Shown one piece after another: positions 4,825-28,804 of a stretch of DNA of 34,766 bases. The notes beneath the pieces were generated by a model, which made no database searches, had not been told where the DNA came from, and worked only from the letters and a program-made list of their open reading frames with translations. This stretch comes from Dehalococcoidia bacterium (lineage in GTDB: Bacteria > Chloroflexota > Dehalococcoidia > JAUSIH01), in NCBI GenBank assembly GCA_030648205.1, contig JAUSIH010000084.1, positions 1 to 34,766 on the forward strand, given 5' to 3'. Within the stretch, counting starts at the first letter, position 1; every line of letters starts with the position of its first letter. A program made the translations under genes and the position numbers.

Positions 4825-5400
4825 CTACCGGGCGACCGGCGGCCGTACCCAGCTCACCTTCGCTTTCGAGGTCGGCAGCATGGCGCCCGTGTGCTTCCGC
4901 GAGTCGCTGTTGTAAAGCCTGCGCCATCCCAGGGGCAGGTCCTCCAGGAACGTCTCCCACATTTCCCGGGTGACGCGGATGAACTCCTCCGAGACCCTGG
5001 TAGCGATGGGACAATAGCGAGCGAGCTTGAAATCCACACCGCCGTCCGCTCGGAAATACGGGACGAGAGGGAAGCTCCGGCAGTCGAAGGGCCGGGACGT
5101 GTAGATGGCGCAGAACCCGGTGGCCTGCTCCAGCATGGGGCAGGGCGCGGCATCGCCGGGGGCATAGCCCACATTGAGGCGGCACTTGCCCACCGTGACA
5201 ACGGCCTGCGGAAAGTCGGCGGGAACGCGCCCGGATTGCCCCGCGAACTGGGCGCGGATGAACTCCTCCTCGTAGGGAAGGAGCATGAGGCTTTCGCGCT
5301 CCTCGCACTTCCTGCAGTCGTCCGGGCAGATGCCGGAGAACGGATCGGTAAGCCGGTAGGCCAGTGCGAACTTGCGGAACAGCCTCTCGCGGTCCGGCAT
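4825..5400 (-). CDS. YkgJ-like cysteine-cluster protein
   Basis: This 191-aa protein has at least eight cysteines in a pattern typical of YkgJ-family (Fe-S or zinc cluster) proteins: Cys25, Cys29 and Cys32 (CPDDCRKC), Cys73, Cys87 (PCPML), Cys97, Cys107 (RPFDCRSFP) and Cys130 (YCP). The RPFDCRSFP block and the late YCP are family hallmarks. Function is unproven; a metal or iron-sulfur cluster role is inferred. It is convergent with ispD (5 nt between stops) and lies between ispD and ispF on the opposite strand. ATG at 5400 is chosen over an upstream TTG at 5490; a clear ribosome binding site is not visible for either start. Confidence 0.8.
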   Translation of the reverse strand: MPDRERLFRKFALAYRLTDPFSGICPDDCRKCEERESLMLLPYEEEFIRAQFAGQSGRVPADFPQAVVTVGKCRLNVGYAPGDAAPCPMLEQATGFCAIYTSRPFDCRSFPLVPYFRADGGVDFKLARYCPIATRVSEEFIRVTREMWETFLEDLPLGWRRLYNSDSRKHTGAMLPTSKAKVSWVRPPVAR

Positions 5401-5593
5401 GATGGACTCGAGGGGTAAGCTCTGGGTCGCCTTGAGGGCGTAAGGTGGCTCCGTTTCCACCGCTCCCGCTTTCCAGGGCACTGCGCACAATGCCCGTTTC
5501 GACTAAAATTGATTTCCAGTCTAAGCCCCATCAGAGGATTGCGCAAGAGGCTTCACGGCGAAGATAGAGACGCACAAGGAGCAGAGCTGAGTG

Positions 5594-26159: not shown

Positions 26160-27110
26160 TTAGTGCGCTCCGGCCTTCGCGGCGTGCGTCTTCTCCATCA
26201 CGAACTCAAACGCCCGGATAGCGGCGGTCACGCCATCCCCAACAGAGGAGGCAAGCTGGCGCACGGAGTGCCACCGGCAGTCGCCCGCGGCGAACACGCC
26301 CGGCACCTCCGTGTGCATGTTCAGGTCCACCTTTACATGGCCGGACGCGTCCAGCGGCACCACGCCCTGGAGGAACTGCGTCTGCGGATAGAACCCAATG
26401 TAGATGAAGATGCCGCCCATGGGCATCTCGGCCTTCTGGTTGGTCTTCAGGTTCTTGACCAGCAGCTTGTTGACCTGGCCGTCGCCCTTGATCTCCTCCA
26501 CAGCCGAGTTCCAGATGAACTTCACCTTGGGGTTTTCATGGGCCCGCTCCTGCAGGATTTTGCTGGCGCGGAGCTGGTCCCGGCGGTGGATGACGGTGAC
26601 CGAGTTGCACATCTGGGTCAGGTACAAGCCTTCGTCCAGAGCGGAGTCGCCGCCGCCGATAACGGCCACGTCCTGACCGGTGAAGAAGTTGCCGTCGCAG
26701 GTGGCGCAGTAGGAGACGCCCTTGGCCTCGAACTCCTCCTCGCCGGGCACGCCCAGCTTCTTGTGGGCGCCGCCCGTCGCCACGATGACGGCCTTGGCGC
26801 GGTAGGTATCATCCTGAGCGGTCCGCAGGGTGAAGGGCCACGTCTTGACGTCGAGCTTGACCGCCTCGTCGTAGGTGACCTCCAGCCCGAACTTGCTGGC
26901 CTGACCCTCGCAGGCCATCACCAGGTCAACCCCACGGATGCCGTCCGGGAAGCCTGGATAGTTCTCAATGATATCCGTGTTGATGATCTGCCCGCCGATG
27001 ACCTCCTTCTCCAGAAGGATGGTCTTCAGCTTGGCGCGCACAGTGTACAGACCGGCGCTGAGACCGGAGACACCACCGCCAAGAATTACGACATCATAAT
27101 CGCCACCCAT
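26160..27110 (-). CDS. trxB: thioredoxin reductase
   Basis: This 316-aa low-molecular-weight thioredoxin reductase passes NADPH electrons through FAD to thioredoxin. The FAD motif GGGVSGLSAG is at residues 11-20 and the redox-active pair Cys135 and Cys138 is in YCATCDG. The NADPH-domain motif GGGDSALDEG is followed by HRRDQLRASK. The late FAD motif AGDCRWHSVRQLASSVGDG has a Cys after the GD, which is unusual but outside the active site. GGAGG lies 9 nt before ATG 27110. No thioredoxin gene is present in the window. Confidence 0.94.
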   Translation of the reverse strand: MGGDYDVVILGGGVSGLSAGLYTVRAKLKTILLEKEVIGGQIINTDIIENYPGFPDGIRGVDLVMACEGQASKFGLEVTYDEAVKLDVKTWPFTLRTAQDDTYRAKAVIVATGGAHKKLGVPGEEEFEAKGVSYCATCDGNFFTGQDVAVIGGGDSALDEGLYLTQMCNSVTVIHRRDQLRASKILQERAHENPKVKFIWNSAVEEIKGDGQVNKLLVKNLKTNQKAEMPMGGIFIYIGFYPQTQFLQGVVPLDASGHVKVDLNMHTEVPGVFAAGDCRWHSVRQLASSVGDGVTAAIRAFEFVMEKTHAAKAGAH

Positions 27111-27211: not shown

Positions 27212-27520
27212 GTTTTGGGTTGTCAGTCGGGAAATGGCAGCTTGCCCTTCGATATGCTCACCATGAGCGACCACAACCAGGCAGGTACAAGGATGTAGAA
27301 GCCCTGCTCCATGAATAGCCTGTACGCCGACTCCGGGACGCCGGGTGAGGAAGAGTGCTCGCGGGCCCGCGATGGGCTGAGGCATTCGAGCAATCAGATA
27401 ATCCACGACGATTATGTACAGAGATTTCTGTCCCTTCTCGGAGCGGGCGCTTGCATGGAATCTTTAGAGATTATGTTACGACGCAACACAGCACCCGTTC
27501 AACGCAGCCCTCTGGTCCGC

Positions 27521-27748
27521 CTACTTCCGCCGGGACGCGATATACCGAACCACCTCATCCAACCGGGTGAACCAGTCCCGCCCCATCCTGACCGCCGGTA
27601 TCCGTCCCGTCCTCGCTAGCAAGCGCAGGTGAGAGTGACTCAAGCCCGAGTGAAGGGCCGCCTTTTTCAAGCTGATGAGGAGCTTCCGGTTCAGGCGTCG
27701 TCCGTGATTCCCGTACCCCTCGTCTGACCCCTCCTTTCGGGTGCCCAT
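27521..27748 (-). CDS. small helix-turn-helix (excisionase/MerR-like) DNA-binding protein
   Basis: This 75-aa protein contains an excisionase-type winged HTH: LISLKKAALHSGLSHSHLRLL (one residue more than a typical core) then ARTGRIPAVRMGRDWFTR and LDEVVRYIASRR. The first 22 residues are charged and probably disordered. GGAG about 7 nt before ATG 27748 supports the start; a TTG at 27760 is possible. It is transcribed divergently from the unknown gene at 28088 across a 339-nt gap, so it may regulate that gene or itself. No integrase or other mobile-element gene is nearby. Confidence 0.68.
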   Translation of the reverse strand: MGTRKEGSDEGYGNHGRRLNRKLLISLKKAALHSGLSHSHLRLLARTGRIPAVRMGRDWFTRLDEVVRYIASRRK

Positions 27749-27858
27749 AGCGCGCTCCAATACCGCAGGGATGCTGTTAGCATCGAGTCCATTTTCTCGG
27801 ATGCCCCCGCCAAGGAAGCCATCCCTGTTTGGTTACGCAACGTGATGTCACTATACAC

Positions 27859-27922
27859 GGGCAATAAACGCTTTCCGCCTATCGACCACATAGAGCGCCG
27901 CGGAGAGTATACATTATTGCCC
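27859..27922. repeat. separated inverted repeat in the HTH upstream region
   Basis: GGGCAATAA (27859-27867) and TTATTGCCC (27914-27922) are perfect 9-bp inverted copies 46 nt apart. Each lies beside a minus-strand -10-like element, TATAGT (27850-27855) and TATACT (27906-27911), both preceded by TG. They could be paired operator half-sites for the HTH gene promoter. Confidence 0.45.
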
Positions 27923-28011
27923 CGCTCCTTCAACGCTATACGTCACACAAATGGACGCCTTTGTCAAGCCTCGTGCGGCGGCATCGGCTCGTGTGATACC
28001 TCTGTCCAATC

Positions 28012-28020
28012 TGGTACAAT
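28012..28020 (+). promoter_or_regulatory. extended -10 promoter of the unknown Rossmann-like gene
   Basis: TGG followed by TACAAT is a perfect extended -10 with a five-of-six hexamer. The -35 region is poor, as is common for extended -10 promoters. Initiation near 28027 would place the downstream inverted repeat in the mRNA leader. Confidence 0.5.
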
Positions 28021-28029
28021 AGTTAGCTC

Positions 28030-28078
28030 GTCGGGCGTTTCTCAGGAACGACAGCAATCGTAGATATATACGCCCGAC
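28030..28078 (+). other. leader hairpin with nested stem upstream of the unknown gene
   Basis: GTCGGGCGT (28030-28038) pairs with ACGCCCGAC (28070-28078), a perfect 9-bp closing stem around 31 nt. A smaller ACGA/TCGT stem (28048-28051 and 28058-28061) is nested inside. The right arm abuts the AGGTG ribosome-binding segment just before ATG 28088. It does not match any riboswitch class I can name. Confidence 0.5.
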
Positions 28079-28087
28079 AGGTGTTGT

Positions 28088-28804
28088 ATGAATTTAGCCG
28101 TCATCGGCGGCGGGTGCTACGGGTGCCTGCACACGCGGCAGCTCCGCAAGGCCCATCTGTACGGCAAGATACGCGCCGACCGCATTCTGGTGGTGGACCG
28201 GCACGCGGACTGCCGCGCCAGCGTGGAGTTCGCCGGCGACCCCCTGGTGCACATCGTCCAGGCGGACTGGCTCACCTTCCTGTGCGACTACCTGGACCAC
28301 CTGCCGCCGGACACGGACGCCCAGATCGTCCCGGCGCCCTTTGCGCCGCACCTGTTGTTCGACTGGCTCGCCGCCAGCGTCCGACGCGCCCTTCCGCGCG
28401 CCGCGGTAGCGCGCCAGCCCTGCGAACTGCGCATGGGCCTGCCCTACGAGCACACCGACCAATCCGGCAACCGCTTCCTCAGCGAGGCGGGCTGGCGATG
28501 CCCCGCCACCTGCATCGAACCTGCCATATGTCCCGCCATCAAGAAGCCGCGCGATTGGGACCTGGCGGAGCGCATCCGCCGGGCCGCGCCCGCGGCCCTG
28601 GGCGCCCACCTGACGGAGGTGTTCCTCTGCCGACACTTTGCTTACGGCGTCGGCGCTATTCCCGCGCGAGACATCGTCGCCGCGCGAGGCCGCATCCTGA
28701 CGGCGGCGCAGTCCGGCTCGCCCCTCCGCGCGGTCATCGGCACCAGCTCCCACTGCCACGGCGTGGTGGGACTTCTCCAGGTGGAGCCCGCGCCGCGACC
28801 CTGA
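28088..28804 (+). CDS. unrecognised Rossmann-like protein with Cys-x3-Cys-x5-Cys cluster
   Basis: I do not recognise the function of this 238-aa protein. The N-terminus MNLAVIGGGCYG looks like a Rossmann nucleotide-binding strand and glycine loop, followed by a second strand ending ILVVDRHADC. A distinctive motif CPATCIEPAICP holds Cys138, Cys142 and Cys148; Cys181 and an HCH triplet (222-224) are further candidate metal ligands. YGVGAIPARDI and VIGTSSHCHGVVGLL look like structured blocks. A metal- or Fe-S-binding NAD(P)-dependent role is only an inference. The gene has its own extended -10 promoter and a hairpin leader, and precedes heme A synthesis genes. Confidence 0.75.
   Translation: MNLAVIGGGCYGCLHTRQLRKAHLYGKIRADRILVVDRHADCRASVEFAGDPLVHIVQADWLTFLCDYLDHLPPDTDAQIVPAPFAPHLLFDWLAASVRRALPRAAVARQPCELRMGLPYEHTDQSGNRFLSEAGWRCPATCIEPAICPAIKKPRDWDLAERIRRAAPAALGAHLTEVFLCRHFAYGVGAIPARDIVAARGRILTAAQSGSPLRAVIGTSSHCHGVVGLLQVEPAPRP

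Follow-up and report, generated by a model that had tools for sequence, protein, structure and literature searches.

The open reading frame at positions 28088 to 28804 on the forward strand of the window (the whole 34,766-nucleotide stretch of Dehalococcoidia DNA that was analysed) is, judged from its sequence, a genuine gene of an undescribed bacterial protein family. The product of this gene, designated X, was best explained overall as a soluble, nucleotide-binding redox protein with a metal or Fe-S centre that would serve thiol or lipoyl metabolism together with thioredoxin reductase, a reading to which we assign a probability of about 0.5.

Identification and distribution of family X

Gene X starts with an ATG codon and encodes a 238-amino-acid protein with the N-terminus MNLAVIGGGCYG. 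Searches against Pfam and NCBIfam gave nothing above cut-off and no match was obtained among PDB sequences; X was therefore rejected as a member of a known family, which upheld the view of the initial annotation that the protein fits no family that can be named. The best Pfam match of X itself had an E value of 0.16, under the curated cut-off, and the best match of any family member was to DAO (E = 3.3e-4), also sub-threshold. The commonest sub-threshold Pfam matches among the members were to dinucleotide-binding families (DAO, 3e-4; TrkA_N, 1.5e-3; NAD_binding_8). A literature search with the X motif returned nothing relevant. Novel gene families from uncultivated taxa have reportedly been catalogued in print (PMC10849945), and family X may be among the entries.

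In whole-genome searches, other families within the class yielded relatives that were 44-55% identical, and no X-carrying relative was found at the genus or family level. Of 400 sampled Chloroflexota genomes, 8 carried a relative, the window's own genome among them; in the Acidobacteriota sample the count was 8 of 247, two of these matches being marginal. The prevalence in both samples was thus approximately 2-3%. In the Gemmatimonadota, 91 of 249 sampled genomes carried a relative (a few matches were fragmentary or marginal), nearly always as a single copy. By tblastn of genome contigs, 109 relatives were confirmed and the best 80 were retained. Phage, plasmid and viral collections contained no match to X, and its location on mobile DNA was rejected on these grounds.

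In the phylogenetic tree the X protein of the window grouped with Chloroflexota members, outside the Gemmatimonadota clade, the nearest forks lacking strong support; by its sequence, X is the Chloroflexota branch of the undescribed family. Two of the taxonomic labels were questionable. One locus labelled Bacillota (L032) appears, by phylum sample, to belong with the Chloroflexota, and its label is doubtful. Another, labelled Candidatus Kuenenia (L067), had an X neighbourhood of the Gemmatimonadota type and fell within the Gemmatimonadota clade; this contig is probably a mislabelled or contaminated bin.

Sequence conservation and predicted structure

The alignment of X comprised 74 members, whose identity to the protein of the window ranged from 25 to 57%. 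Sixteen columns were invariant in all 74: G12, A22, D37, C42, V81, P82, W93, P119, S132, C138, C142, C148, P149, G187, C223 and H224. The AlphaFold2 model built from this alignment (pLDDT 95.9, pTM 0.90) predicted, at high model confidence, a two-domain protein consisting of a Rossmann domain (residues 1-110; 28088 to 28417, forward strand) and a C-terminal Cys/His domain (residues 111-238; 28418 to 28801, forward strand).

The N-terminal domain was delimited by the secondary structure of the model, and the sub-threshold Pfam matches, mostly to dinucleotide-binding domains, pointed the same way. Its landmarks are GGGCYG (residues 7-12), Asp37, Cys42 and VPxPxxPH (residues 81-88), and the glycines at positions 7, 9 and 12 were conserved in at least 90% of the 74 members. 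GxGxxG, and an Asp where strand 2 ends, are features of NAD- and FAD-type Rossmann domains. In X, GxGxxG follows strand 1 and the invariant Asp37 ends strand 2 within a modelled beta-alpha-beta topology, as in the NAD(P)/FAD-binding Rossmann superfamily; no curated family model matched, and X is not claimed as a member of any named family. These features supported the nucleotide-binding start proposed in the initial annotation. The Cys/His cluster described there was likewise borne out, being conserved across the 74 members: Cys42, Cys138, Cys142, Cys148, Cys223 and His224 form a clustered set of invariant candidate ligands of the kind found in Fe-S and zinc proteins.

The C-terminal domain, in which Cys138, Cys142, Cys148, Cys223 and His224 were invariant, folded separately when modelled alone (pLDDT 94.4). 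Residues 138-149 (CPATCIEPAICP) contain Cys138, Cys142 and Cys148-Pro, and this Cys loop was the lowest-pLDDT region of the model (79-91). Further landmarks are His183, preceded by an extra Cys at position 182, and Cys223-His224-Gly, which lies within Ser-Ser-His-Cys-His-Gly at residues 220-225. When the whole model was compared with the PDB and BFVD (solved and viral structures) by Foldseek there was no match at E ≤ 0.001, and the alignments that were returned covered mainly the N-terminal half. The C-terminal domain alone also had no PDB match at this threshold; the modelled domain would thus lack a solved structural relative among PDB entries.

Genomic neighbourhood

In the window, X lies next to a divergently oriented thioredoxin reductase gene (26160 to 27110, reverse strand; Pyr_redox_2, with a CATC active site). 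The genome has no second thioredoxin reductase homolog, and the two open reading frames are approximately 980 bp apart. For two single-copy genes among approximately 2,600, the estimated probability of chance adjacency is of the order of 0.1%, or approximately 0.6% if all eight neighbours seen in the Gemmatimonadota are eligible, both estimates being post hoc. No convincing gene was found in this gap, of which approximately 600 bp (27407 to 28010) were single copy in the genome. Elsewhere in the window, a Cys-rich open reading frame at 4825 to 5490 (reverse strand) resembled, by inspection, a YkgJ-type metal-binding protein.

The Gemmatimonadota loci had the order PDH E1, E2, PHP, SDR, X, thioredoxin reductase, MBL hydrolase, fumarase and Rrf2. 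Thioredoxin reductase lay downstream of X on the same strand (median gap 64 nt) in all 55 informative loci of this type, that is, those with more than 3.5 kb downstream of X. The SDR gene ended a median of 7 nt upstream of X, and PDH E2 was found upstream on the same strand in approximately 62 loci. General housekeeping synteny may account for this fixed order, and the argument from neighbourhood to function is post hoc. No lipA homolog was detected in the Gemmatimonadota loci by tblastn; a motif scan for LipA, LipB and LplA proved too strict, missing a Pfam-confirmed lipA, and its zeros were not used.

Outside the Gemmatimonadota the neighbours of X varied among the other Chloroflexota and Acidobacteriota loci and no arrangement was conserved. 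Nine loci, from Chloroflexota, Bacterium HR23 and Acidobacteria, lacked the downstream, same-strand thioredoxin reductase gene. Two Chloroflexota lineages (L012/L028 and L013/L031) had PDH E1/E2 genes no more than approximately 6.5 kb from X, and lipA lay within approximately 1-3 kb of X in L013/L031 and L014, all of one Chloroflexota family. Near X in L111, an ErpA/IscA-like gene was recognised by sequence inspection. In a Dehalococcoidia genome from Lake Baikal, a FolB-like open reading frame lies beside X (L030, 5630-6022); a pterin or folate link, drawn from this gene and the SDR gene upstream of X in the Gemmatimonadota, was set aside because the hint was too thin to claim.

A distant branch, X', was found in two Dehalococcoidia genomes (L015, 6028-6753; L016, 6397-7128). 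These proteins are homologous to the X protein of the window over the full length, with 23% identity and a pairwise E value of 4e-12, and share its main Cys and His residues: Cys42, Cys138/142/148 and Cys223-His224 are retained, and the alignment showed that Cys10, the His88 position and His183 are absent. Unlike X, X' is encoded inside an apparent cobamide salvage operon, btuFCD-X'-(cbiZ)-cbiB-cobT-cobS, in both genomes. The cbiZ gene is present in one of the two; only CbiZ was confirmed by Pfam, the other genes being named by inspection. No further clear X' was found in an additional sample of the class.

The leader of gene X

The initial annotation had also proposed that X is controlled by a structured leader, with a 9-bp stem and a nested stem whose right arm lies against the ribosome-binding segment. 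As a description of the sequence and of the RNA fold this was correct. An inverted-repeat search located a perfect 9-bp dyad with a 31-nt loop at 28030 to 28078 (forward strand), with arms GTCGGGCGT (28030-28038) and ACGCCCGAC (28070-28078); the right arm directly abuts AGGTG, which is followed by the ATG of X. The predicted fold, at -28.6 kcal/mol (z = -2.4), consisted of the 9-bp stem with a 4-bp hairpin nested inside it; 6 of 200 shuffled sequences folded equally well.

The proposed control of X was unsupported, though not disproved. A perfect 8-bp stem was not found in the 80 nt upstream of any of 18 X relatives; the start codon was secure for approximately 13 of these and uncertain for five (L031, L014, L065, L072 and L102), in which the stretch may not be the true leader. 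No Rfam family matched anywhere in the window, the dyad occurred once in the genome, and the Gemmatimonadota homologs, so close behind SDR, are nearly leaderless. On this evidence a conserved, structured cis-regulatory leader was rejected. An operator common to X and the divergent thioredoxin reductase gene was also rejected, because the dyad is more than 900 bp from the reductase start.

It is unlikely, in our estimation, that the dyad functions within a single lineage, either as an operator over the transcription start or as a 5' hairpin that tunes translation. Such a role would fit the position of a perfect 9-bp stem beside the Shine-Dalgarno segment, the z score and the probability of finding such a stem in the 67-nt leader alone (approximately 0.002, uncorrected for having looked). 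It would also fit a possible extended -10 (TG) promoter, GTGATA-16-TACAAT, at 27993 to 28020 (forward strand), found by consensus scan only; transcription from it would start near 28026 and the dyad would then lie at the 5' end of the mRNA. Against it stand the missing stem in the 18 relatives, a single genomic copy, which leaves no regulon of the exact dyad, and the frequency of comparable stems, since perfect stems of 9 bp or more, with loops no longer than 50 nt, numbered 16 in the whole window where approximately 9.8 were expected. Another perfect 9-bp inverted repeat is located just upstream of the X leader, at 27859 to 27922. Moreover, the Shine-Dalgarno segment, reached by three weak pairs in the minimum-energy structure, is free in the centroid structure. 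The stem exceeds chance only mildly; family X clearly does. The hairpin is probably incidental or purely local and lineage-specific, and the leader has no importance beyond the strain of the window.

Proposed function of X

The predicted Rossmann domain, of the NAD(H) or FAD type, would bind a dinucleotide. Cys138, Cys142, Cys148-Pro and Cys223-His224, together with Cys42, which is placed by the model at the end of Rossmann strand 2, would probably coordinate a metal or an Fe-S cluster next to the site of nucleotide binding, and the protein would most likely be a soluble oxidoreductase or a redox-active cofactor-handling protein. In its GxGxxG loop, its strand-2 Asp and the alternating strand-helix order of the model, X resembles the classical dinucleotide-binding Rossmann proteins (DAO, NAD_binding_8, TrkA_N and the N-terminal domain of saccharopine dehydrogenase), but its C-terminal Cys/His domain is unmatched among them and no Pfam cut-off was reached. 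Thioredoxin reductase (Pyr_redox_2) shares with X a Rossmann fold of the nucleotide-binding type, and is its genomic neighbour in the Gemmatimonadota and in the window; X, however, has neither the second nucleotide domain nor the CxxC motif, and the searches made revealed no homology between the two. It is possible, although doubtful, that X is not a redox enzyme, its Cys and His residues binding a structural zinc and its Rossmann domain holding a nucleotide for a sensor, transferase or regulatory subunit. The Cys-x3-Cys-x5-Cys and Cys-His arrangement is compatible with zinc, and the pLDDT of the Cys loop, the lowest in the model, may reflect a missing metal that would order it, a frequent pattern in such loops. 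Yet the nearly invariant polar residues His88, Arg155, His183, Ser132 and Thr219 look catalytic, and the third Cys of X is followed by Pro; Cys-Pro is frequent in Fe-S proteins.

A role for X in thiol or lipoyl metabolism alongside thioredoxin reductase is suggested because of the thioredoxin reductase, PDH and lipA neighbourhoods. We regard this part of the reading as tentative and rather doubtful, since the neighbourhood varies outside the Gemmatimonadota and the distant X' belongs to an apparent cobalamin salvage operon, not obviously a thiol or lipoyl setting. Still less probable is the full combination, in which the enzyme family and its C-terminal fold would both be new, an Fe-S cluster would lie beside the dinucleotide, the enzyme would act with thioredoxin reductase in bacterial thiol or lipoyl redox chemistry, and a distant branch would have been drawn into cobamide salvage. 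That X carries Fe-S clusters to lipoyl synthase or repairs its cluster in the manner of NfuA, or is another lipoate-pathway helper, would account for the proximity of lipA in two members drawn from a single Chloroflexota family, and for the PDH E1/E2 genes that lie close to X in two lineages of Chloroflexota and upstream of it in the Gemmatimonadota. Conserved cysteines and PDH/lipA neighbourhoods are indeed shared with Nfu-type carriers and LipA-associated factors. This explanation is nevertheless very unlikely: tblastn detected no lipA in the Gemmatimonadota loci, X has no sequence match to Nfu, and its Rossmann domain, for which a carrier would have no need, stands alongside a Cys-x3-Cys-x5-Cys-Pro motif that sets it apart. 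Lipoate assembly of the LipT/LipS type, considered in view of the reductase and PDH neighbours, was dropped: a literature search returned the paper on this pathway (PMC10332631) and nothing that connected it with X. Among the highest-ranking Foldseek matches of the C-terminal domain alone, thiolase-superfamily enzymes (FadA2, ACAA1, CsyB, ChlB3, FabH and OleA) predominated, which might suggest that the domain derives from, or acts like, a part of that superfamily (a beta-alpha-beta-beta unit). We consider this highly improbable, given that all of these matches had E values of at least 0.3 and query TM scores of at most 0.34, short of a significant fold match, and no common catalytic motif was demonstrated.

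The redox reading remains the preferred one for X. Given its presence in more than one third of the sampled Gemmatimonadota, nearly always as a single copy, its fixed order with thioredoxin reductase there, its 16 invariant positions and a domain that lacks a solved relative, family X stands out clearly as a candidate redox or cofactor enzyme that has so far gone unrecognised, and one that is open to direct testing through cultured Gemmatimonas strains.
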